A DNA stretch of 39,375 bases, taken from positions 1 to 39,375 of IMG/VR virus record IMGVR_UViG_3300005537_000017; one strand, written 5' to 3'. A model generated the notes under the pieces. That model saw only the letters and a program-made list of their open reading frames with translations, was not told the DNA's origin and ran no database searches. The stretch comes from a virus. Position numbers and translations under genes: made by a program. This document shows, piece after piece, positions 14,663-33,289 of this stretch (its first letter is position 1; every line of letters starts with the position of its first letter).

Positions 14663-16912
14663 ATGACAGCACTTACTGTCTATGGTACTAATGTAGCTAC
14701 CTCAACTCTCTCAACTGCGGCTGGCCTGGTTACATCGACCGGAGGTACTTTATCGTCTTGCTCGTCGAAGATAGGTACCTCCACCGGATACGGCGAACTC
14801 TACTCACTAACCAACTCCAACGCTTGGGCGGCAGCGGGTAGCTTAGGATCTCCTTCTGGAAACGGCTGGTTGTGGGACGTAACAAGTCTCGAAGGCCAAT
14901 CTCTACAGACCGGCAACTACACTCCATCTATTAGGGTGAGGTTCTCCAACGGGACAGGAACTTGTGACTTCTACGTCAGATATTACAAGTATCATAGCGG
15001 AACGTATACGCTTATAGGTATATGCTCCTCTACTGGCAACAGTATGACCACGGGGTTTCTCAACCTCACGTTTTCTGCCACCTCGCTCAACTTGATGCCA
15101 TTCTCAACTGGTGACAAGTTGTACATAGATACTTGGGCAGATATTACGGCCAACAGTAGCGGAAGTGGCGCTGCTACACTTATCATGACGGTCTGTAGCA
15201 CTAGCACACTGGGTGATACTACCAACCAGTCTGTAACTCCCGGCTACTTAGCTTCGAGTTTCACGCTGACTACAGACTCGATGACTGTATCCGACTCCTA
15301 TACGCCTACCATATCCCCCACTCTCACTGACAGTAATACGCTAAGCGACACTTTATCGCCGACTACAGCATCGTCTTTTACAGATACTAGCACAGTGTCG
15401 GATGCGCTTTCCCCTACCTCTATTCCTATCTTGACGGATGCACTCACCCTAGTTGAGAGTAGCGTTTCGTGGTCGCTTGCTCAAACACAGACGGATAGCA
15501 ACACTCTTACGGATACCCCAGCTTCGACTACTGTGTCTACTGTTACTGACAGTGGGTCGTTTGTAGATACTCTGTCTCCAACCACGAATTCAACCGGAAC
15601 AGACAGCGTTACTGTGTCTGATACGTTGTCTCCAACTGTCTCGCCTACAGTCACTGACAGTAACAACTTTAGCGATACGCTTGCACCCAGTACTAGCTCC
15701 AGTCTCACTGACAGTGGACTTACGAGTTCCGACTCTTTCAGCGATGCCATTGCTTCATCTCTCACTGACAGCACGTCGCTAACCGATACATATACATACT
15801 CATCTAGTACTTCTTATACAGATATTAGCTCGTTTTCAGACTTATTATCGCCCACCACTAACACAACAGGTACTGACGTCGAGCTGATAGTAGGAGAGTC
15901 TTATTCGTACTTATTAGCACCTACAGTCACTGACAGTAATACGTTACAAGAGGCAAGCCAGAGTAGTAGTTCGACTACCTTTACTGATGGTGAGATGCTT
16001 ACCGAGGCGTTCTCGCCAACTAGCATCCTTATCGAGACGGATGCGCTTACTCTGGTTGAAAGCGCGACGTGGTCTTTACTGGACTCGCTTACTGACGCCA
16101 ATGTGCTAGTAGAGACTTTCGTACTGCTACCTAACGAGATTCTCACTGACAGGGAATCGTTCCAAGACCTACTCCAGGCGATTACGTCTTCTCCAACTCT
16201 TACGGATAGTGGTTCGCTAGTTGACTCTCTACTATTGCAGAGTCTAAGTACGTACGCAGATGCTAATTCCTTGCTGGACAGCCTACTACCGAGTACGACG
16301 ACTACCTTTACCGACAGTGAGTCGATGTCAGACAGTTCTGCCAACAGTACTAACACGACTGGTACGGATAGTATGACAGTTGGAGAGAGCTATACCAGTA
16401 TCGAGAATACAGTAGTTACAGATGTGCTGGTCCACATAGAGGTCTTGCAACTGCTACTAGCGGAGTCACTCGTAGATAGTGCGTCGATGTCGGATACGTC
16501 CGCGAATACAACTTCTCTTTCATTACTGGATACCGGTTTGACCGTTGGAGAGTCGTTTACAAGCATTACGTTGCCTAGTCCGGTTGACATTGCGCCATTC
16601 GCAGATATGTACCAAATCTCACTCTCGACTACCTTTACAGAAGTTCCACTCAGTCTGGCGGATGGTCTTAGCAACTCTGTGATACCTACGTTGTCTGACA
16701 GTTTGACTGCCACTGAGATACTAGTCAACATTCTATTGCTGTTGGTGCTCACCGATCAACTCAACTCCGTTGACAAATCTCAGCTCATTGCAGTCATATC
16801 GCCAGCTCTTGTAAGCACGACTTGTCGAAATGGCGTCATAACAACCGTATGTCGCAGTGGAATAGTGATAGCGACGAGTAGGAATGGTCTAGTCTCTGCC
16901 TTTACGAGATAG
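14663..16912 (+). CDS. Long repetitive Ser/Thr/Asp-rich fibre (adhesin-like)
   Basis: A 749-residue protein. Residues 1-205 look like a beta-sandwich binding domain (NGWLWDVTSLEGQSLQTGNY). From about 205 to 690 the protein is built of roughly 18-residue units of the form TDSxSLSDTLSPTxSxT, more than 20 in all, degenerating towards the C-terminus. The last 35 residues hold three short strands (CRNGVITTV, CRSGIVIAT, RNGLVSAFT). The repeats carry about one or two Asp each, so Ca2+ could stiffen them. It likely forms a long flexible fibre, with the N-terminal or C-terminal end binding receptors. Confidence 0.6.
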   Translation: MTALTVYGTNVATSTLSTAAGLVTSTGGTLSSCSSKIGTSTGYGELYSLTNSNAWAAAGSLGSPSGNGWLWDVTSLEGQSLQTGNYTPSIRVRFSNGTGTCDFYVRYYKYHSGTYTLIGICSSTGNSMTTGFLNLTFSATSLNLMPFSTGDKLYIDTWADITANSSGSGAATLIMTVCSTSTLGDTTNQSVTPGYLASSFTLTTDSMTVSDSYTPTISPTLTDSNTLSDTLSPTTASSFTDTSTVSDALSPTSIPILTDALTLVESSVSWSLAQTQTDSNTLTDTPASTTVSTVTDSGSFVDTLSPTTNSTGTDSVTVSDTLSPTVSPTVTDSNNFSDTLAPSTSSSLTDSGLTSSDSFSDAIASSLTDSTSLTDTYTYSSSTSYTDISSFSDLLSPTTNTTGTDVELIVGESYSYLLAPTVTDSNTLQEASQSSSSTTFTDGEMLTEAFSPTSILIETDALTLVESATWSLLDSLTDANVLVETFVLLPNEILTDRESFQDLLQAITSSPTLTDSGSLVDSLLLQSLSTYADANSLLDSLLPSTTTTFTDSESMSDSSANSTNTTGTDSMTVGESYTSIENTVVTDVLVHIEVLQLLLAESLVDSASMSDTSANTTSLSLLDTGLTVGESFTSITLPSPVDIAPFADMYQISLSTTFTEVPLSLADGLSNSVIPTLSDSLTATEILVNILLLLVLTDQLNSVDKSQLIAVISPALVSTTCRNGVITTVCRSGIVIATSRNGLVSAFTR

Positions 16913-17267: not shown

Positions 17268-17498
17268 ATGAGTACCGCACAAATTATCCTGACTGTCGTC
17301 TTTTACATTTGGCTATTCGTCGTAGTTGGGTTACTTGCTTACCACGCCTTACGCAGCGGTACTTATGTCAGAGGCCTCCAGCATACACTATCTGAGATAG
17401 CGAAACAGAGTGCAGACGCAGCCACCACAAGTGCCAACGCAGTAGAGAGGCTAGTTACCCTGATGGAGCAGGAGAAAAAGGATGCCGGACCTCAGTAG
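17268..17498 (+). CDS. Small membrane protein, holin candidate 1
   Basis: A 76-residue protein with one strong membrane segment (residues about 5-28, ILTVVFYIWLFVVVGLLAYH) and a helical, coiled-coil-like tail with Ala, Thr and Lys. It ends with an acidic/basic tail overlapping the next gene. At the end of the late operon, one- or two-gene membrane sets of this kind are usually holins or antiholins, but single-span proteins of this shape are not diagnostic. Confidence 0.45.
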   Translation: MSTAQIILTVVFYIWLFVVVGLLAYHALRSGTYVRGLQHTLSEIAKQSADAATTSANAVERLVTLMEQEKKDAGPQ

Positions 17499-17835
17499 CT
17501 TCCTGTCCATACTCAGTCCTGTACTCGCGATCTGCATACTAATTGGTGGATTCTTTGCCTTCCGCTCAGGTTATAGTAACGCTACTACAGAGACGCAAGC
17601 GAAATTGATAGAGACTCTCAAAGTCCAAATAGAGACGTTAGAGAAGCAGGTAGCCCACGATACTAAGGAGATCACCCGCTTAAAAAGCACCGTGATAACT
17701 ATCCAGAAGGTATTAGGGCAACGTGGTATGACTATAACAGTGGATGACGAGTCCGTGACTCTCAAGGAAGATATGAACAAACAAACCATCTCTACTACTA
17801 CTGTGCAGATCACGTCCTCTCAAACAACACCGTAA
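17482..17835 (+). CDS. Small membrane protein with coiled coil, holin candidate 2
   Basis: A 117-residue protein with one N-terminal membrane helix (about 7-27, LSPVLAICILIGGFFAF) and a long coiled coil (about 35-80, KLIETLKVQIETLEKQV), then a Thr/Ser tail. It starts behind GGAG within the previous gene. Overlap suggests translational coupling with its neighbour. Together they could make a two-part holin or a spanin-like pair; no endolysin gene is next to them. Confidence 0.45.
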   Translation: MPDLSSFLSILSPVLAICILIGGFFAFRSGYSNATTETQAKLIETLKVQIETLEKQVAHDTKEITRLKSTVITIQKVLGQRGMTITVDDESVTLKEDMNKQTISTTTVQITSSQTTP

Positions 17836-18071: not shown

Positions 18072-19682
18072 TCACTCAAGTCCTTCACTTCGATCCACTA
18101 ACTTCGCTCCAACGTAAGCAGTCCTCTGCCCTCTAGTACCGTCTGCCTTCGGCCCTGATGGAGTGCTCTGCTCTATATTGAACTCCGCCTTCATTAACTT
18201 CTTCAACTCCTTCGCAAAGTCGCCACTGGACTTTGATTGTATGCCTGCTCTCCGGCAGCGTTTAGAGTAGTCAACCCAGCACTCCCAAGCAGCGACCTCT
18301 GAGTTGAAGTCCTTCTCTACTCTGCACTCAAACCACTCAGTCACATCGTTGGTGATCTCTGGCTCTGGTTCGATCCACTCCATCACTGCTCTCGATCTTA
18401 GATCGCTCTGGATCACTGCACTGGACTCTAATTTCTGCACTGGATGACTGCTCTGGATCACTGCATCATAACTATGCACTGCGATCTGCTCTGGCAGAGG
18501 CCTCTGCACTCCAGTCGATGCACTGTATCTCTGTACGAGTGCTCTGATGTCCTCGACAGTTGTGAAGGGCACAGATATAATCACTGCTTTTCTCAGAGGA
18601 CCTCCATCGAGTACTGCATAGCCAGCGGCTTCCTCACCTTCGATCAGAGGGAGCAAGTTCTCGATCGCATCCTCGTCTATGCCTAACATACGTGCTTGCG
18701 CATCCCTAGAGCCAAATGCATAGCGGGTCTGGAGGTTGTCCCTGGCTCCACTGCCATCGAACAGTATTGCTGGTAGCGACTGCCCTGCAATGATGCACCT
18801 CATCTTAAACTTCCTACCCTCTGTTACAAGTCTCAGCACCGCATCTTGTACTGCCTCCGTTGCTTTCTTGTTTCTTTTGAGGGCAGTCATGAGTGCAGTG
18901 AACTCATCGATGATGTACAGTAGCTCTGGCAGAGCCTCCCACTGACTCAGCGCTCTGGACTCTCTTCTCTGCACTGCTTTATAGAGAGCCTTCCTTTGAG
19001 TGAGGGCATCGATGATCCATTGAGCATCTGTCACAATATCGTCAGGGTCATCAAAGATGTTGAGCACATCGCTCAAGTCAGCAGCTACACTGCAATGCAT
19101 GTCCCAACCTCTCACCTCTGCCCCTCTCTTCAGAGCGCAGGCAACTAAGTATCGAAGCAGTGTAGACTTACCCTGCCCTGGACGACCGATGACACCAATA
19201 GACAGTGTGTGCTCTGGCTTCGCTCTAATCCAGTCACAGCCGTCATACCCCAGTATCTCTTGCCCCGCACTGACTTGGTTCCACATCTGCTTGATCGCTG
19301 GACTCCTTGTCGGCAGCAAGTCGTTCGGTGCTACTCCCCTGTCTCGTAACGACTGTACATTATCGCTAGTTACTACAATCTCTTCCTCTATCGGATACCT
19401 GCCAAATGCTCGATCCAGTAAACTACGCTTCGATCCTGTCATAGGTGGTATTGTCTCTTGAGGAGATTCTTTCTGTTGCCAGAGGTCAGTGAGATCGTAT
19501 TCGGTCCCTCTTACACCAACCAGTTGTAACACATCTGTACTACCTGCACCCGCTACTAGTCCAGAGACGAGCCCACAGAAAATGGCTGCTGGAACAGGTA
19601 AGTGTCCCATTCCAGCAGTGGCTCCGAAGACAGTTAGACCAGTCGTTAGACCAGTGGTAACTTGGGTTCTAAACTTGTCCAT
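18072..19682 (-). CDS. FtsK/SpoIIIE/TraB-like DNA translocase
   Basis: A 536-residue ATPase. Residues about 10-55 hold one or two membrane helices. Walker A is GRPGQGKST (about 166-174) and Walker B is LLYIIDE (about 254-260), followed by a sensor-like IIAGQSLPA strand, in the order of FtsK-family motors. Residues about 445-530 form a helix-turn-helix-like C-terminal domain with basic helices (CWVDYSKRCRRAG). Tailed phages do not usually carry such genes. In Streptomyces plasmids and integrative elements, a single FtsK-like protein (TraB) moves double-stranded DNA and works with small membrane Spd proteins. The two genes upstream in this operon are membrane proteins. Confidence 0.75.
   Translation of the reverse strand: MDKFRTQVTTGLTTGLTVFGATAGMGHLPVPAAIFCGLVSGLVAGAGSTDVLQLVGVRGTEYDLTDLWQQKESPQETIPPMTGSKRSLLDRAFGRYPIEEEIVVTSDNVQSLRDRGVAPNDLLPTRSPAIKQMWNQVSAGQEILGYDGCDWIRAKPEHTLSIGVIGRPGQGKSTLLRYLVACALKRGAEVRGWDMHCSVAADLSDVLNIFDDPDDIVTDAQWIIDALTQRKALYKAVQRRESRALSQWEALPELLYIIDEFTALMTALKRNKKATEAVQDAVLRLVTEGRKFKMRCIIAGQSLPAILFDGSGARDNLQTRYAFGSRDAQARMLGIDEDAIENLLPLIEGEEAAGYAVLDGGPLRKAVIISVPFTTVEDIRALVQRYSASTGVQRPLPEQIAVHSYDAVIQSSHPVQKLESSAVIQSDLRSRAVMEWIEPEPEITNDVTEWFECRVEKDFNSEVAAWECWVDYSKRCRRAGIQSKSSGDFAKELKKLMKAEFNIEQSTPSGPKADGTRGQRTAYVGAKLVDRSEGLE
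18384..18525. repeat. Cluster of CACTG repeats inside the translocase gene
   Basis: CACTG, followed by C, G or T, appears seven times in about 140 bases on the plus strand, with a 16-base exact direct repeat GCTCTGGATCACTGCA at 18405-18420 and 18450-18465. It falls in the coding region between the motor and the C-terminal DNA-binding-like domain, where the peptide contains AVIQS twice. TraB recognition repeats lie within or beside some traB genes; this could be a similar cis site, or only repetitive linker coding. Confidence 0.5.
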
Positions 19683-19683
19683 A

Positions 19684-20205
19684 TTATTTCCTCCAACCGT
19701 CTATGGCCGCTTCAATAAGCCTAAACGCAATCGGCAAAAGGAAACACACTCCCATACCGCATACAAGTGAGAACGCCAGGTTACCTACCCAACTACCTAC
19801 ATACAAGGTACCGTAGGAAAAGTCAGAGTAAGCATTGTACAGCAGTAATACTAGGGAGGCGATCACCCACCACTTAGGAAGACTCTGATGTGATTGGGAA
19901 GCTGCTTCCATAGCAAACTTCAATGCTACCGCGAAGATCAGCGTAACCAACTCCACCATGTACGCCCACGTGACTGCGACTAGCAAAGCTCCGTGTAGTT
20001 GTCCTGTTACTAGCTCCCAGAACAGTACGAACACTCCCCAATCGGCTGTCTGTACTGTCACTTCTTTGCCGGATAGCATGAGTGCCATTGAAGTTTGCAA
20101 CTGCAATAGTACAATGCCTACCCACATACCCGCACAGAAGAGTCCTACGACAAGCAGCAGTATTGGACTTTGCTGTCTGCGATGTGTTACATGTTCTGTT
20201 GCCAT
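19684..20205 (-). CDS. Multi-span membrane protein
   Basis: A 173-residue protein with likely membrane helices at about 14-36, 71-98, 111-125 and 138-160, one base upstream of the translocase ATG region and overlapping the zinc-finger gene at its own start. A short basic N-terminus (HRRQQ) and C-terminus (DGWRK) suggest both ends face the cytoplasm. I do not recognise a family. Tight spacing implies co-translation with the translocase and a shared membrane complex. Confidence 0.6.
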   Translation of the reverse strand: MATEHVTHRRQQSPILLLVVGLFCAGMWVGIVLLQLQTSMALMLSGKEVTVQTADWGVFVLFWELVTGQLHGALLVAVTWAYMVELVTLIFAVALKFAMEAASQSHQSLPKWWVIASLVLLLYNAYSDFSYGTLYVGSWVGNLAFSLVCGMGVCFLLPIAFRLIEAAIDGWRK

Positions 20206-21101
20206 TACTGCACCTCCTCAATACTTTCGACTCTAGGCTGCTGCATCTCTAGAAACAACTGACGTACGTCCCTTTCTGCTAGTAGCTTCTCTTTGTATGC
20301 TCCAGCCAACTCTCTTAGATCGTTCGCCTCTTGCTTAAGGTTGGCTGCTACCATTGCTGGCGTCTTCACTTCAATCGGCATCCCCAACGCAATGATAAAG
20401 TCTCCGGCTGTTGTACCTATCGCCCTAACAGCTACGATCAAACCGATGACGGAGAACATCACAGTTGTATTAGCTCCTGTCAGTGCTCCGAACTGTGCAA
20501 CGGCTGAGATAATCGCTAAGACAAACCAACTGATAGCGGCCCAAGTCATTTGCCCTTCTAAAATCGGTTTTGACTCGGAGGCAGCAATGGCAATCTGGTA
20601 TCTCAGCCGACGTACCGCTAGTGTTTGTAGCATCAGAATGCCTTCAAAGGCGATCGTCATACCTAACACAGCGGCCATAGAGAGCCAGTTGGTATCCTTC
20701 CCTATCAGAAACACAGTAATGTCTACGCCTACTGCTGCCACAATCAGTACGACAGCGACTAACGGCCCCCAATGTAGCATCCACCTCTCCACGGTAGCAG
20801 CTGGACCTTCCTTCTCGGCCTCAGTACGAGCATCACGTAACTGTCCTTGGGCGTCTTGAGAGAACATCTCACTACGTTCTACAGCCTTCCGCTCTTCCAC
20901 AGAAGTAAAATGTTCTGTCGTGGTAGTAGTCGTTTTTGACGCGACTACCATCCGACGCTCTTCGTCTTGCCTATGCAGAGACATTTGCTTCTTGTGTGCC
21001 ATATGTGCTAGGTAGCAATTGTTGTTACAGTACTTCCCTTGATGACTCTTAGGAAGCACTGCACCACACGTTGGCAATGCACAATATTTAATTTCTGCCA
21101 T
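20205..21101 (-). CDS. Zinc-finger multi-span membrane protein
   Basis: A 298-residue protein. I choose the ATG (MAEIKYCALPTCG) behind AAGGGG; a longer form starting at 21146 would overlap the upstream gene. C7, C12, C25 and C29 with GKYCNNNCYLAH form a zinc-finger-like knuckle. Four membrane helices follow at about 112-134, 140-162, 184-205 and 211-238, then a helical, charged C-terminal tail. It forms an operon with the tetra-span protein and the FtsK-like motor. No family is recognised; a membrane anchor with a cytoplasmic DNA- or protein-binding knuckle fits. Confidence 0.6.
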   Translation of the reverse strand: MAEIKYCALPTCGAVLPKSHQGKYCNNNCYLAHMAHKKQMSLHRQDEERRMVVASKTTTTTTEHFTSVEERKAVERSEMFSQDAQGQLRDARTEAEKEGPAATVERWMLHWGPLVAVVLIVAAVGVDITVFLIGKDTNWLSMAAVLGMTIAFEGILMLQTLAVRRLRYQIAIAASESKPILEGQMTWAAISWFVLAIISAVAQFGALTGANTTVMFSVIGLIVAVRAIGTTAGDFIIALGMPIEVKTPAMVAANLKQEANDLRELAGAYKEKLLAERDVRQLFLEMQQPRVESIEEVQ

Positions 21102-21112
21102 CTCAACCCCTT

Positions 21113-21454
21113 CTAGCGGTCCTCTACGTACACTTCCCACTCGCATCCGAATTCGTCTATCCTGTAACGATATCCTAGCAACTCTCGTACCTTACGTTCG
21201 TACTTCCACTCTAGCATCTGCATTTGCTGCTCGTCCTCATCCTCGTCATTCCACATTGCAATGCAACCTTGATACCACCACTCCATACGAGCAGCAATCT
21301 CTTCCAAAGACATCCCTTCTCTCAACAAGTCTCGTCCGCGCAGCTGCCAATACAGACCGTACGCGTAGGACCTACGCTTGGGTTGGATCTCGAAACATCG
21401 AGGTTCGCTATACATGGACGTATCAGTTAATGGGGTGACTGTGATGGTTTGCAT
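21113..21454 (-). CDS. Hypothetical acidic small protein
   Basis: A 113-residue protein; I choose the internal ATG (MQTITVTPL) behind AAAGGAGG. The middle is rich in aromatic and acidic residues (AARMEWWYQGCIAMWNDEDE) and ends YEWEVYV-like (CEWEVYVEDR). No family is recognised. It lies between the excisionase-like gene and the membrane module, in the same direction. Confidence 0.5.
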   Translation of the reverse strand: MQTITVTPLTDTSMYSEPRCFEIQPKRRSYAYGLYWQLRGRDLLREGMSLEEIAARMEWWYQGCIAMWNDEDEDEQQMQMLEWKYERKVRELLGYRYRIDEFGCEWEVYVEDR

Positions 21455-21500
21455 GTGTATCCTCCTTTTGGCCTGTGTGTCACGTGCATTTCGCATGCCA

Positions 21501-21727: not shown

Positions 21728-21756
21728 TATATCTATAGTAGACTACTATAGATATA
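21728..21756. promoter_or_regulatory. 29-bp perfect palindromic operator
   Basis: Arms of 14 bases (TATATCTATAGTAG) flank a single central base, ending two bases before the HTH gene's first ATG. The palindrome overlaps the predicted start site of transcription and the end of the -10 box. This is a classic layout for repression by a dimer, perhaps the HTH protein itself. Confidence 0.8.
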
Positions 21757-27048: not shown

Positions 27049-27099
27049 AGGGGTATCCCCAGCAATTTTAACTCATCAATAATATTACCTGGGGCCCCT
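27049..27099. repeat. GC-rich stem-loop with TAATATTAC in its loop
   Basis: AGGGG-TAT-CCCCAG pairs with CTGGGG-CCCCT as a bulged stem around a 26-base AT-rich loop. The loop holds TAATATTAC (27080-27088), the sequence cut at geminivirus origins. No rolling-circle (HUH) Rep protein is encoded here, so that match is probably chance, but the hairpin sits beside the iteron origin. Confidence 0.5.
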
Positions 27100-27107
27100 C
27101 CTGTATA

Positions 27108-27373
27108 TAGTTGGTTCTATAGTTGATTCTAGTTGGTTTCATAGTTGGGGTAAACCTACTTCTAGCCTAGGTTTAGTTGGATTAGTTGGTTTTTCATTAA
27201 CTTAATTAAAAAATTTATATATAGATGAGCTAATATATACCCATAAAATATATAAATTAAGCTGTGAAAAAAACCAACTAATCCAACTATGAACGGTTAA
27301 ACCTAGGCTAGAAGTAGGTTTAACGGATTTGGTTTCCAACTATGAAACCAACTAACTACCTAAAATCCAACTA
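27108..27373. repeat. Iteron-bearing imperfect palindrome, probable replication origin
   Basis: Six TAGTTGG iterons (one with a final A) on the plus strand at 27108, 27120, 27130, 27142, 27174 and 27183 are mirrored by five CCAACTA at 27274, 27283, 27336, 27348 and 27367. Perfect inverted segments include 25 bases at 27151-27175 with 27298-27322, and 19 bases at 27130-27148 with 27336-27354. The centre (27195-27269) is almost pure A and T. This layout, between the RHH-like gene and a D5-like replication gene, is what a Prim-Pol/SF3 origin should look like. Confidence 0.75.
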
Positions 27374-27461
27374 TACACTGCAAGGGGTGGAGGGAAGACA
27401 CACTTGTGATAGGCGACTGTACCCACAGCAATAATCGTATAAAACCCAAGCTGAGGGTAAG

Positions 27462-27502: not shown

Positions 27503-28222
27503 CTACTTTAACTGCTCGTAGAGCCGAGCAGTTTCTTCGTTCCAAGCAGAGCCGAAGACATAGCTTGGCCGACCCTTGACTACCTTCTTTTTGGGTGGCT
27601 CTCCAACATGAGGAAAGCGGCTACGTCTAGGTTTCTCTTCCTCTTCTTCCTCTTCCTCTTCCCATACTTGCTCCTCTTCCTTTACATCTATAGCTGTGGA
27701 TACCCGATCGAGAATTGTCTTCCCGGTTAGGTTGAACTGACGCCCAGCCCAAGCATACTTGTTGTTCGTCGTGACTAGCGGTAGTTTGTAAAGCGTGGCA
27801 ACCGTCTTGTAGAACGTGTTCCTGCCGATGATGTTAGCGATGCTGAGGTTGTTCTCGTTCGCCCACTGTATGAACGCCCTCCACGCGTCCTGTCGAATCA
27901 GTGTATCCGACCGACGTTGATTGGGCTTCCATGAGATACAGTCCACTTTGACGGTGCACGCTTCCATGAACTCTCTAACTCGCTGCTCCGCTTCAGTCGT
28001 AGGTCCTTCCGTCTCGACCTCAATCCCTTCCTCTTCAGGTTGTGGGACAATGCCTCTCCGAGCTAACTCAGTTAGCTGTCTCTGAAGTGCTGCAAACTGT
28101 TGCATGACTGCCTGTTCAAAATTGCTTGTTTCTGAGGCTTGAGTTTCCATCAGTACGTCGAGTCGTTGGGCAATACAGATGAACTCATCTCTCTGGTTGG
28201 TTCCTTGTTCGATGTTTTCCAT
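27503..28222 (-). CDS. Replication-accessory protein with D5-like winged domain
   Basis: A 239-residue protein. Residues 1-60 form a coiled coil (MQQFAALQRQLTELARRG). About 85-175 resembles the C-terminal winged domain found in D5/P4-type primases: RQDAWRAFIQWANENN, then IGRNTFYKTVATLYKLP, then KYAWAGRQFNL. The tail has an acidic run (about nine Glu) next to a basic PKKKVVKGRP. It may be a split-off origin-binding or loading subunit for the primase-helicase. It lies beside the iteron origin. Confidence 0.55.
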   Translation of the reverse strand: MENIEQGTNQRDEFICIAQRLDVLMETQASETSNFEQAVMQQFAALQRQLTELARRGIVPQPEEEGIEVETEGPTTEAEQRVREFMEACTVKVDCISWKPNQRRSDTLIRQDAWRAFIQWANENNLSIANIIGRNTFYKTVATLYKLPLVTTNNKYAWAGRQFNLTGKTILDRVSTAIDVKEEEQVWEEEEEEEEEKPRRSRFPHVGEPPKKKVVKGRPSYVFGSAWNEETARLYEQLK

Positions 28223-28720: not shown

Positions 28721-28764
28721 CTCCTTTCGAAACATTGCAGTTGTTTTTCGAAAGGAGCTTTTTT
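28721..28764 (+). terminator. Intrinsic terminator overlapping integrase ribosome-binding site
   Basis: CTCCTTTCGAAA pairs perfectly over 12 bases with TTTCGAAAGGAG, then CTTTTTT follows: a textbook rho-independent terminator. Its descending arm contains AAAGGAG, the only Shine-Dalgarno site for the integrase ATG at 28765. Folding should both end most transcripts and hide the ribosome-binding site. Confidence 0.85.
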
Positions 28765-29697
28765 ATGCTCATCCGGGACGCCATTGAAGAATATCTGGCT
28801 ACCAAACGACCCTCTATCACCCATGATACGTACGAGTGGTACACCTACTTGCTCGACTTCTTCCAACGCTGGTGTGATACTCACCACCTCACTGTGTTGG
28901 CAGAGCTAAAGGCACCACATGTTGCCCAGTTCGTTGCAGATACCCCCTCACAAAACACGCATACTCGCCATGCAAGAGCACAGGTTGTCAAGAGCTTTCT
29001 CCGCTGGTGCTCAGAAGATGATGAGTTAGGGGTACGTGAACGAACCGTCAGCCGCATAGAGATGCCCAAAATCGAACAGTCTGAGATCCACCTGTTTACT
29101 GACACTGACATCCGGCAACTCTTCAAAGCCTGCGATCAGACACGTGATCCACATCGCAACAGAGCAATCATCCACCTGCTGTTAGACACAGGGGTACGTG
29201 CCAGCGAACTGTGCTATGACTCCACCCGTCCAGAGGAAGAAACCGGCTTACGCATGGCCAACCTCTTCATAGGCCGAGGTGACTCCTACATCAGGGTCAT
29301 GGGCAAAGGCCGGAAACCTCGCAGCATTGGACTTGGCCAGCAAACTAGCCTCGCTGTACGTCGGTATCTCTCACGTGAACGTGGACACTCCCTTTCCCAG
29401 TTTGTCTTCCTGTCTAGGGGTGATGAACCTCTCAGTGTCCGTATGCTTCAACAGTTTCTGGGTACTCTTGGCAAACTGGCCCATGTCCCTGATTGTCATG
29501 CTCACAGGTTCAGGCACACATTTGCTGTGATGCAACTCATGCAAGGGACCTCAGACCTCGTCCTTATGCAACTGATGGGGCACACCACACTGGAGAGCAC
29601 GAAGCTGTATACACGAGCAATGACCTCACTACAAGCTCGACAATCCGGCAAGAGTCCGGTTGATCATATGATTTCTCTTCGCCGTTACACGCTATAG
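28765..29697 (+). CDS. int: Tyrosine integrase
   Basis: A 310-residue XerC/D-like recombinase. Residues 1-85 form the SAM-like core-binding domain. Catalytic residues are in order: R145 in DTGVRASEL, K181 or K184 in GKGRKPRS, H247 and R250 in HAHRFRHTF, H273 in LMGHTTLES and Y282 in KLYTRA. The ATG follows AAGGAG by seven bases; a TTG start 30 bases upstream would lie in the hairpin loop. It should integrate and, with the excisionase-like protein, excise the prophage. The two tRNA-like fragments upstream are attP candidates. Its expression is likely set by the terminator hairpin. Confidence 0.92.
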   Translation: MLIRDAIEEYLATKRPSITHDTYEWYTYLLDFFQRWCDTHHLTVLAELKAPHVAQFVADTPSQNTHTRHARAQVVKSFLRWCSEDDELGVRERTVSRIEMPKIEQSEIHLFTDTDIRQLFKACDQTRDPHRNRAIIHLLLDTGVRASELCYDSTRPEEETGLRMANLFIGRGDSYIRVMGKGRKPRSIGLGQQTSLAVRRYLSRERGHSLSQFVFLSRGDEPLSVRMLQQFLGTLGKLAHVPDCHAHRFRHTFAVMQLMQGTSDLVLMQLMGHTTLESTKLYTRAMTSLQARQSGKSPVDHMISLRRYTL

Positions 29698-29797: not shown

Positions 29798-30046
29798 ATG
29801 ATACGGCTGAGGGTAAAGGAAGCAGTCACAGAGCAAGGGGTGAGTCTTGCAAAGCTGGCACGGAAAGCGGACCTTGATTGGAAAACCGTCCACCGGCTGA
29901 TCAAAAACCCCTATGCAGAGGTCTCTACCATTACCCTCGGTCGGATTGCAGATGCTTTAGGAGTCTCTGTTCACGCGCTCGTTGAAGACGGTCCTGGGCC
30001 AGACCAGCAAGGTGGCCTCCACCTTGACAAGCTTACTCTATTATGA
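29798..30046 (+). CDS. Xre/Cro-type HTH regulator, candidate repressor
   Basis: An 82-residue protein with a full five-helix Xre fold: VKEAVTEQGVSLAKLARKAD, WKTVHRLIKNPYAEV, and LGRIADALGVSVHALVED. It starts at ATG behind AAGGA. It lies just after the integrase and is the best candidate for the prophage repressor, although many such small proteins are activators or repressors of neighbouring genes. Its stop lies inside an inverted repeat that overlaps the promoter of the next gene. Confidence 0.8.
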   Translation: MIRLRVKEAVTEQGVSLAKLARKADLDWKTVHRLIKNPYAEVSTITLGRIADALGVSVHALVEDGPGPDQQGGLHLDKLTLL

Positions 30047-30073: not shown

Positions 30074-30781
30074 ATGATCGCAAACACAGACGTACAACTC
30101 ATGTTTACAGCTCTCCAGCAACTCCCAGACTTAACAGATGAACTCCCTGAATTCGTATACGGCCACCTCAGTCAGTGTGTTATCGCAGCCATCTACTCCT
30201 TGCAGACTGACGGGGATGTCGAGCGAGCGATTGTCCAACGCTATGCTGAGTGGGCCAAGCTTGAACCTGTGTACCGATCGAGTAGGCTTGACTTCGTGCC
30301 TATAGGAAATCAACAACCACTGGGAGCTTTCATCAGGGACGTCAACGACTGGGGTCCAGACATGTTTGCATCTGAGGTACTACGGAACAGCAGGCCAATT
30401 GGTGGTATCTCACGAGCGTTGAGTGCCTTAGAGTTTGCACAGTTGTGTGTGAAGTGGGAAGTTCGCTACTTCCAGGACTGCGATCGCATCCTCCACAACC
30501 AGGCGTTTGAACGTGAAGTGAAAAAGATCCTTGGCTGGGGTGGAGGCAGAGCCCTTGACTACTTTTATATGATGGTTGGTACAGAAGAGGACGTGAAGGT
30601 AGACGCACGAGTGTCAGACTTTGTCACCCGTACCCTCGGACGTTCGCTGAATGAATCCGACACCAAAGCGTTAATTATCGCCGTAGCGCCACTGTTCCAA
30701 CGAACCCCCAGACAAATAGACAACCGCATTTGGCATTGGGAGCGTATCCGAAACAAAGGACGTAAACGCCATGACCCATGA
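30074..30781 (+). CDS. HhH-GPD-like DNA-glycosylase-fold protein
   Basis: A 235-residue protein. Residues about 145-215 match the helix-hairpin-helix-GPD pattern: KKILGWGGGRALDYFYM, then KVDARVSDFVTRTLG, where the Asp in VDARV corresponds to the VDTHV Asp of endonuclease III and AlkA-like enzymes, then ALIIAVAPLFQRTPRQIDNR. The N-terminal 140 residues are helical and unassigned. It may repair or sense damaged or modified DNA, or only use the fold to bind DNA. ATG follows AAGGAG. Confidence in enzyme activity is low. Confidence 0.5.
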   Translation: MIANTDVQLMFTALQQLPDLTDELPEFVYGHLSQCVIAAIYSLQTDGDVERAIVQRYAEWAKLEPVYRSSRLDFVPIGNQQPLGAFIRDVNDWGPDMFASEVLRNSRPIGGISRALSALEFAQLCVKWEVRYFQDCDRILHNQAFEREVKKILGWGGGRALDYFYMMVGTEEDVKVDARVSDFVTRTLGRSLNESDTKALIIAVAPLFQRTPRQIDNRIWHWERIRNKGRKRHDP

Positions 30782-30965: not shown

Positions 30966-31033
30966 CACAGTCGCTCTGTGTCTGTTCCTGGATGAAGAAG
31001 CTTTCATCTTTGTTAGAGAACTCCGTTGTTGGT

Positions 31034-31125
31034 TATGGGCGATATGGGCGTTATATTTTAATTAGTTATAAAAAAAGATCAGAAAATTTTATATATAAAA
31101 ATAAAAGACGCCCATATCGCCCATA
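31034..31125. repeat. Inverted iterons around an AT-rich core (second origin-like locus)
   Basis: TATGGGCGATATGGGCGT (31034-31051) is perfectly inverted at 31108-31125. Each arm holds two ATGGGCG units nine bases apart. The 56-base centre is almost all A and T. The plan is like the 27.1-27.4 kb palindrome, with different iterons, so it could be a second replication site, a partition-like site, or a control site for the late operon. Confidence 0.6.
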
Positions 31126-31182
31126 GCTTAAAAATCTGTTGAGGAAAAAAGAATCATCACCGTATGCTATAGCGTCGTAACC

Positions 31183-31214
31183 AGCAGATTGGCTAGCAGT
31201 TTACAGCAGTTTGG
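31183..31214. repeat. Three AGCAG-TT repeats, possible terminase recognition site
   Basis: AGCAGATTGG, AGCAGTTTAC and AGCAGTTTGG lie at 31183, 31195 and 31205, upstream of the terminase genes. Small terminase subunits bind short tandem repeats at pac or cos sites, usually next to their own gene. Support is positional only. Confidence 0.35.
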
Positions 31215-31245
31215 ACTCTCGAAGAGATATTACCGGGATTACCTC

Positions 31246-31275
31246 TTGATTTGTCACTGACAAGTATCATAGAAT
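31246..31275 (+). promoter_or_regulatory. Weak promoter candidate for the late operon
   Basis: TTGATT and TAGAAT lie 18 bases apart, with TTGTC and GACAA inverted across the spacer. It points to the terminase genes about 195 bases downstream. A non-sigma70 late promoter cannot be excluded. Confidence 0.35.
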
Positions 31276-31470
31276 ATATCCAACAGGTCATCGTCAGTAA
31301 AGTACCTTGGTGAGTAAAGCCCTTTGCCGCTGTGGTACCGATGACCAAATGCATACAAAAAGTGATTTGTAGAGGACGGTGTCTTCACTTATCACTGACG
31401 GGAGCTCCTTTGGTGCAACGGTAGTTAGTAACCGATATGGTGAACGCTACCGTTTGTGCTGTGTACTACT

Positions 31471-31884
31471 ATGTCAAATCCAACTTCCTACAAACATGAC
31501 TCAGCCACTGTTGAGAAGATTCGACAGCAAGCGATACGTAGAGAAGCCCAGAAGCGTGGTGAGTTGATAGTCGTGGAAGAGCCCTCTCCAGCAGACCTTC
31601 AGAAGGAATTCAAACATACTTGGGCGGATCTCGAAGTTAGATTAAAGAAGCTATGTGACGTTGCAGAGAAGTGCTATATCGAGATTATGGCTAGCTCAAG
31701 CGTCCCCCCTAGACTAGTTGAAGTACTCAACCAAACCGCTGACGGTATTGCTAAGGAAGTAGGTGCTCGCCAGCAGAAGTCTCAAGTAGAACTATCAGGT
31801 AGCGTACAATCGCAAGTCGTGTACGTAGAGTTCCCCTCAGTTGACGAAGAAGTTGAGGACGAAGAAGACGTTGACTCAGACTGA
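31471..31884 (+). CDS. terS: Terminase small subunit (probable)
   Basis: A 137-residue protein beginning MSNPTSYKHDS. The N-terminal part is helical and basic, the middle is a long helix region (KEFKHTWADLEVRLKKLCDV), and the tail is strongly acidic (VDEEVEDEEDVDSD), as in small terminases. It overlaps the large subunit gene. No Shine-Dalgarno site is visible before the ATG. The call comes mainly from position. Confidence 0.6.
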   Translation: MSNPTSYKHDSATVEKIRQQAIRREAQKRGELIVVEEPSPADLQKEFKHTWADLEVRLKKLCDVAEKCYIEIMASSSVPPRLVEVLNQTADGIAKEVGARQQKSQVELSGSVQSQVVYVEFPSVDEEVEDEEDVDSD

Positions 31885-33289
31885 AGTACGCATTCGACCT
31901 CATAAAGGTCCGCAGACAAAGTTCTTACAAACGAGAGCGGAGATCTGTGTGTATGGCGGGAGTGCCGGTTCGGGTAAGAGTTACGGAGTACTATTAGAGG
32001 CAGCGAGACATGCCTGCTTGCAACCTGTGAGAGGTTTCCAAGCCGTTGCGTTTAGACAGTCGTTCCCTCAGATTACACAAGAGGGTGGACTGTGGTCTAC
32101 ATCATTGCAGTTGTATCCGATGTTGGGTGGTATACCGAGATTCTCCGACTTGAAGTGGTTGTGGCCTCAGTACGATACGTCGATAAGATTTAGTTACCTC
32201 AATCACGTAGACGATGTGCTGAAGTGGCAAGGTAGTCAGATTACGTTGATCATCTTCGACGAACTCACCCACTTTAGTCAACAGCAGTTCTTCTACATGC
32301 TCTCCCGCAACCGTAGCACATGTGGCGTCCAACCATATGTGAGAGCTACAACGAATCCTGACGCTGACAGTTGGGTGAAGGACTTCCTCTACTTATGGGT
32401 GGATGAGACCTGTCCACACGAAGACAAGGCGAAGAGTGGTGAGATACGTTGGTTCATACGAGAGGGCGGTAACATTGAGTGGCTACCAAGAGGAGAGAGG
32501 CATCCAGATGCTAAGAGCGTTACGTTCATTGCAGCTAGCATTTATGATAACCCGACTCTGCTACAAGCTGATCCAAACTATCTTAAGAACCTTAAAGCAC
32601 TTGATGATGTCGAACGACGTCGTTTACTACATGGAGATTGGTCCGTACGCCCATCCGGTATTGTGTACCAGAGAGAATGGTTTAGGGTGGTACATACTAT
32701 AGATGAGTTTGAGTTCGTACGTAAAGCACGGTGGTGGGATTTAGCTGCCACTGAAGAGACTGGGGCTAACGATCCTGACTATACCGCTGGTGTGCTGGTA
32801 GGGAAAACAAAAGACAACCACTACGTCGTACTTGACGTGTGTAGGTTACGCGGTTCTCCGAGACAGGTCGAGACGATGATAGCGAAGAAGGCAGCTGAGG
32901 ATGGCAAGGACGTCTCGATCTATATGGAACAAGAGCCCGGTAGTGGAGGGATCAATACTATCGACCACTATAGACGCAACGTATTGCAGGGGTATACGTT
33001 CCGAGGTATTGCACCTCACACATCGAAGGTGGAGAGATCCCGCCCTGTGTCATCACAATGTGAAGGCGGGAACGTGACCCTAGTGAAAGCGCACTGGAAT
33101 GACACCTTTTTGAATGAGTTGGTAGCCTTCCCCTCTAGTGGAGTACATAAAGACCAAGTGGATGCGTTCAATGGAGTCATGGGGCAGTTGTTCGAAGCTG
33201 ACATTGACGAACACTTGAGAGCACTCAAGAGCAGATTGGAGGTGAGAGAGCAACATGGCAAGACGCGTACGCCGGCAACAATCCTCTGA
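31841..33289 (+). CDS. terL: Terminase large subunit
   Basis: A packaging motor and nuclease of up to 482 residues. Walker A is GGSAGSGKS (about 39-47), Walker B is LIIFDELTHF, followed by the coupling motif ATTNPD. The C-terminal nuclease domain has WWDLAATEE (first metal Asp), the EQEPGSGG segment, and HKDQVDAFNG (late Asp pair), as in Terminase_6C families. The start is unsure: in-frame TTG codons at 31841, 31853 and 31871 all precede a conserved-looking region, and the last overlaps terS least. It drives DNA into the prohead through the portal. Confidence 0.92.
   Translation: MTKKLRTKKTLTQTEVRIRPHKGPQTKFLQTRAEICVYGGSAGSGKSYGVLLEAARHACLQPVRGFQAVAFRQSFPQITQEGGLWSTSLQLYPMLGGIPRFSDLKWLWPQYDTSIRFSYLNHVDDVLKWQGSQITLIIFDELTHFSQQQFFYMLSRNRSTCGVQPYVRATTNPDADSWVKDFLYLWVDETCPHEDKAKSGEIRWFIREGGNIEWLPRGERHPDAKSVTFIAASIYDNPTLLQADPNYLKNLKALDDVERRRLLHGDWSVRPSGIVYQREWFRVVHTIDEFEFVRKARWWDLAATEETGANDPDYTAGVLVGKTKDNHYVVLDVCRLRGSPRQVETMIAKKAAEDGKDVSIYMEQEPGSGGINTIDHYRRNVLQGYTFRGIAPHTSKVERSRPVSSQCEGGNVTLVKAHWNDTFLNELVAFPSSGVHKDQVDAFNGVMGQLFEADIDEHLRALKSRLEVREQHGKTRTPATIL

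Follow-up and report, generated by a model that had tools for sequence, protein, structure and literature searches.

The window analysed here is the whole of IMG/VR virus record IMGVR_UViG_3300005537_000017 (39,375 bases), whose first 120 bases are identical to its last 120, which is what a phage assembly closed into a circle should show. Its leftward block, from ~28.2 to 18.1 kb, holds a D5/P4-type primase-helicase and small genes and ends in a cluster encoding an FtsK-type ATPase (the motor) and two multi-span proteins. An earlier note, made from the sequence alone, had described three leftward, tightly packed genes at 18072-21101; the open reading frames are indeed present, and their junctions are a TAATG overlap and a 1-nt gap (Table 1). 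Rightward genes follow the tailed-phage order of terminase, portal, protease, SU10-like capsid, tape measure and tail genes. The phage is known from public sequence data only, and is temperate, since it carries a tyrosine integrase and a Cro/C1-type repressor.

Two further leftward genes precede the cluster. The 127-aa product matches no family in Pfam, PHROGs or a further profile search. The HTH_17 gene is the first gene of the apparent operon, and its counterpart in a second phage, described below, is just 35% identical. The palindrome upstream of it, absent from 20 shuffled genomes, touches the -10-like hexamer of the promoter-like site and is a candidate operator; promoter-like sites in the window are no more frequent than in shuffles. 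The 22-bp inverted repeat is 97% conserved between the two phages and its loop is invariant, whereas the flanking DNA is not conserved. It is a candidate terminator, regulatory hairpin, or protein or recombination site. We infer that the genes from the HTH regulator through the motor form one self-regulated operon. An Rfam search returned nothing at gathering scores, and low-threshold miRNA matches at 31033-31126 were set aside as an AT-rich hairpin.

Table 1. Features of the motor cluster, its upstream DNA and selected phage genes (window coordinates)
Feature	Position	Strand	Basis or remark
FtsK_SpoIIIE-family ATPase motor, 536 aa	18072..19682	-	PF01580, motifs
173-aa protein, four predicted membrane helices	19684..20205	-	hydropathy
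298-aa protein, zinc-finger-like	20205..21101	-	Cys motif, hydropathy
127-aa protein	21113..21496	-	conserved with cluster
HTH_17/excisionase-type DNA-binding protein, 74 aa	21501..21725	-	PF12728 E 5.7e-12, TIGR01764
29-nt perfect palindrome, 14-bp arms	21728..21756	.	directly upstream of HTH gene
Promoter-like site	21784-21756	-	10/12 consensus positions
22-bp inverted repeat, 19-nt loop	21813..21885	-	fold z-score -7.2
Tyrosine integrase	28735-29697		
Cro/C1-type repressor	29798-30046		
Terminase	31841-33289		phrog_979, 447 bits, 2e-133

Several other features of the genome were recorded. An AT-rich intergenic region beside the primase block (27095-27390) combines AGTTGGTT/AACCAACT iterons with perfect inverted repeats that are nested and have arms of 25, 21 and 19 bp; it is likely the phage replication origin, and is missing from the second phage. 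The neighbouring 239-aa protein (27503-28222) has a weak D5/primase C-terminal-like domain (phrog_6088, E 0.0045) and is possibly an origin-binding protein. In the tail region, a 749-aa protein (14663-16912) consists mostly of degenerate short repeats around 'LTDSxTLSDTLSPT'. A 235-aa protein (30074-30781; phrog_29694, E 1e-24) has a counterpart in the second phage that is 78% identical. Just before the terminase region, ~300 mostly noncoding bases (31166-31462) are 95% identical in the second phage, kept although the terminase genes of both phages differ; they are a candidate late promoter, packaging or attachment site. Convergent with the motor gene are two small one-helix proteins of 76 and 117 aa (17268-17835), 97 and 90% identical in the second phage while most tail genes there differ; the larger is weakly like an Rz-type spanin.

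The FtsK-type motor and its two membrane partners

The motor scores 30.3 bits against PF01580 (E 3.6e-7), above the curated cut-off of 24, and its copy in the second phage scores 27.2 bits; on these Pfam matches both copies belong to the FtsK/SpoIIIE ATPase family, as the earlier note had proposed. It also matches phrog_1358, 'FtsK/SpoIIIE-like', at 1.9e-11. The RecA-like core carries Walker A GRPGQGKST (residues 166-174) and Walker B LLYIIDE (254-260) as originally read. An N-terminal hydrophobic stretch lies at about residues 12-46, yet its best 19-residue mean hydropathy of 1.88 is only moderate, so that the proposed membrane anchoring is likely rather than certain. Downstream of the core, a variable linker (about residues 390-430) leads to a C-terminal domain (about 430-530). 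The C-terminal 100 residues match a stretch of viral primase containing Pfam Pox_D5 (E 2e-5, one record), and the domain alone gives E 0.07-0.1 for RFX and Pox_D5. The HTH-like C-terminus claimed earlier thus finds a D5/RFX-type winged-helix match, a weak one, and a DNA-binding end of this type is plausible, not proven. AlphaFold models (pLDDT 34.5 for the whole motor, 52.5 for the C-terminal domain) were too poor for use, because the motor has too few relatives.

The two multi-span partners, one of them zinc-finger-like, also proved to be as first described: each has four predicted helices, and the Cys motif was found. The 298-aa protein consists of an N-terminal zinc-finger-like Cys motif, a coil, its hydropathy-predicted helices and a C-terminal coil. 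Its motif reads C-x4-C-x12-C followed by a fourth Cys, where the homologue in the second phage has instead a nearby His at the fourth ligand position. The start is assigned to the ATG at 21101, with a AGAAGGGG-type ribosome site ahead of it; the listed open reading frame has an in-frame upstream ATG at 21146. No family match was obtained for the 298-aa protein in Pfam, or for the 173-aa protein in Pfam and PHROGs.

Among the named comparators, a Lactococcus plasmid ATPase is best (54.7 bits), followed by an EccC-like protein (47.4), a Streptomyces californicus plasmid Tra (42.7, core only), an AICE-type Tra (40.0), E. coli FtsK (29.3) and pIJ101 Tra (20.8); scores of pIJ101 and pSN22 TraB against the motor are near chance. 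The Lactococcus FtsK ATPase is likewise nearest in the plasmid collection (E 2e-6, about 25% over the core). This ranking characterizes the motor as a single-core FtsK ATPase of the mobile-element or secretion sort, with no close named family. It is closest, though weakly (~26%), to single-domain FtsK ATPases of Gram-positive mobile elements, among them those of small plasmids (TcpA-like, e.g. of Lactococcus pJM4J), and to EccC. Unlike the phage, however, the 4.1-kb pJM4J has a replication initiation factor adjoining its ATPase, and its annotation shows no recognised counterpart of the two four-helix partners. The EccC proteins of type VII secretion, which score similarly over the core, have several ATPase cores and ESX partners, whereas the motor has one core and no ESX partners among the scanned proteins.

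Comparison with TraB/Spd systems

In Streptomyces, TraB is a lone FtsK-type pump for double-stranded DNA that binds 8-bp clt repeats, and membrane Spd proteins are encoded in an operon with it (PMC12857230). The Streptomyces plasmids hold in one block a Prim-Pol/P4 primase, an HTH protein, DUF2637, small proteins (zinc-binding once), TraA and TraB. Like TraB/Spd of these plasmids and of AICEs, the phage cluster combines a single FtsK-type ATPase with membrane partner genes in an operon, in a genome with its own transcriptional regulator, primase-helicase and tyrosine integrase, and the motor C-terminus is winged-helix-like, if weakly so. In contrast to those systems, the cluster lies within a complete tailed-phage genome and kinship is limited to the FtsK core: neither HMM, BLAST nor hhalign comparison reveals anything beyond it, and the motor was rejected as a TraB member. 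The partners matched no SpdB/DUF2637 profile (PF10935) at E 10, in a weak control, as PF10935 also missed pIJ101 SpdB, and hhalign left the membrane segments of the 298-aa protein unaligned, so Spd/DUF2637 membership was likewise rejected. The specific kinship to TraB/Spd suggested in the earlier note is therefore not supported, as TcpA-like, AICE-type and EccC-like proteins all outscore pIJ101 and pSN22 TraB and the partners are unlike SpdB/DUF2637; its sequence observations stood, and its interpretation is supported in part.

A clt-like cluster of octamer repeats common to both phages was not found. We discarded two candidate clt/KOPS-like sites: octamer repeats at 18382-18465 lie inside the coding sequence of the motor linker and form no such cluster in the second phage, and the iterons of the putative origin have no equivalent there. 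Being unshared, neither is a convincing common recognition site. By analogy the cluster may work like TraB/Spd; it qualified as a member in no test applied here.

Retention of the cluster in a second phage

We searched for relatives of the motor by pattern scans of IMG/VR, including one with the Walker A pattern. The sole relative found is IMGVR_UViG_3300006028_000024 (33,228 bases); the pattern scans yielded no further copy, and the other Walker A matches were DnaB-type helicases and a clamp-loader-like ATPase rather than motor relatives. Such scans detect close relatives only, so the rarity of the cluster is partly due to method. Searching 50,697 phage records and 72,556 plasmid records with the whole motor gave nothing at 1e-5, and neither 398 Bacillota genomes nor a separate genome scan yielded a relative; a further genome scan returned only distant relatives of the terminase, from Bacillus and archaea among others. 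Of 38 virus records with a related terminase that were searched with the motor, none contains it, although one matched its C-terminal domain alone, inside a primase, and one has a different FtsK-like gene.

In the second phage the 127-aa, 298-aa, 173-aa and motor genes stand in unchanged order (86, 90, 94 and 84% identity), so that both membrane genes accompany the motor there too, as the original interpretation expected of relatives, with a single relative to judge from. The dN/dS values are 0.30 (127-aa), 0.19 (298-aa), 0.075 (173-aa) and 0.15 (motor). The latter three indicate that the cluster genes are real rather than chance reading frames, and by this sequence comparison the four-gene set is under purifying selection.

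The remainder of the two genomes is largely exchanged. BLAST of the window against the second phage found no match for terminase, portal, capsid or primase-helicase, and the integrases are 35% identical. The claim that this phage has Prim-Pol replication and a tyrosine integrase holds for the integrase, which was found together with the D5 primase-helicase and the motor; a Prim-Pol domain was not detected in the window by Pfam and is found in the relative. There, an integrase, a PF09250 Prim-Pol domain and the motor accompany a full virion gene set. By gene content alone, the second phage formally fits the definition of an AICE, an actinomycete element, as Tyr/Ser integrase, Prim-Pol/RepSA/RepAM and FtsK-type Tra in one element (PMC3218068). 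The cluster thus outlived the swap of virion, replication and integration modules, which favours a function of its own and disfavours a close link with either this primase or this integrase.

Possible roles of the operon

The survival of the operon in a phage with different capsid, replication and integrase genes makes it probable that the operon has a genuine function in handling phage DNA at the envelope. Our tentative preference, at rather less than even probability, is a TraB/Spd-like membrane pump for double-stranded DNA that acts on the phage genome in transfer, positioning or segregation. The self-regulated operon would encode a membrane-anchored FtsK-type translocase and two dedicated multi-span partners. 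At the host membrane the motor would form a ring, and its winged-helix-like C-terminal domain would load it onto phage DNA. The motor would then pump or tether the genome at a site in the membrane that both partners help to build, resembling TraB and Spd in manner, not by descent. Extrachromosomal phage DNA might in this way pass through a septum or between cells in contact, or be positioned there. In favour of such a pump are PF01580 in both copies, the plasmid- and AICE-like nearest sequences, the tight junctions, the purifying selection on the retained four-gene set, the weak D5-type match, the separate terminase and the precedent of TraB with its Spd proteins; against it count the missing TraB/Spd/DUF2637 orthology, the lack of a shared clt-like cluster, the small number of known copies (two) and the resemblance of the motor to EccC, a protein mover. 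True cell-to-cell spread takes up about half of the probability we give to the pump. That a family of temperate tailed phages possesses a full TraB/Spd-like apparatus for conjugation, T4SS-free and independently evolved, and so can spread as naked double-stranded DNA from cell to cell on contact as well as in virions, is accordingly a rather unlikely proposition. Conjugation through a T4SS appears not to apply, as neither a relaxase nor VirB4 turned up when about 30 proteins of the window were compared with Pfam or PHROGs.

It is possible, if doubtful, that the operon serves lysogeny within one cell in the manner of FtsK-Xer, by driving or directing the tyrosine integrase in excision, integration or multimer resolution, or by segregating an extrachromosomal prophage when the cell divides. 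An excisionase-type HTH gene heads the operon, a tyrosine integrase is present and the conserved inverted repeat adjoins. To our knowledge, however, FtsK-Xer systems need no two extra membrane partners, and the identities of 35% for the integrases and 84% for the motors indicate that the two are not evolving as a matched pair. A role in lysogenic recombination has been proposed for integrase-near FtsK genes of B. cereus-group phages (PMC3335513).

Superinfection exclusion or defence, in which a lysogen-made ATPase and two membrane proteins block entry or kill on invasion, strikes us as unlikely. Membrane proteins without an assigned family are common in exclusion, the regulator and promoter-like site fit prophage expression, and of all library profiles PADLOC mad8 matches the motor best (E 3e-12); this match is nevertheless restricted to the common NTPase core, and no effector domain or other defence gene was found nearby. 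Protein export by an EccC-like (type VII) or coupling-protein-like ATPase, instead of DNA movement, seems improbable. The EccC-like ATPase scores nearly equal to plasmid FtsK proteins and TIGR03924 matches at E 2.6e-4, but the motor has a single core and a possible DNA-binding C-terminus, and the scanned proteins include neither ESX substrates nor further Ecc components, all of which argues otherwise. Least credible, and very improbable indeed, is a motor for virion DNA packaging or genome entry. Although phrog_2666, annotated as terminase, matches the motor core (E 1.8e-7), the genome has its own canonical terminase and a portal gene in the PHROGs scan, and the same motor stands beside a different terminase in the second phage. 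We therefore rejected the motor as the terminase of this genome, which also answers the concern that the ATPase might belong to a packaging family.

FtsK-family genes of B. cereus-group phages were described in 2012 within an additional module, with no role assigned and a link to lysogenic recombination suggested (PMC3335513). Like the phIS3501 p50 module of these temperate phages, our cluster is an accessory module through which a phage encodes an FtsK ATPase; unlike here, membrane partners are not described in the passages on that module. The motor had no match at E 1e-5 in the phage collection, outside which the phIS3501 record lies. What is new here is that the motor comes with two membrane partners and a regulator, and that this set persists while other modules are exchanged.

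Phage-borne FtsK ATPases have long been noted without an assigned function (PMC3335513). A motor, two membrane proteins and a regulator that survive swaps of capsid, replication and integration genes make a compact, testable unit. If the operon does move phage DNA between cells, viral and conjugative routes would be joined in one element. Furthermore, a phage can fall under the Int+Rep+FtsK rule for calling AICEs.
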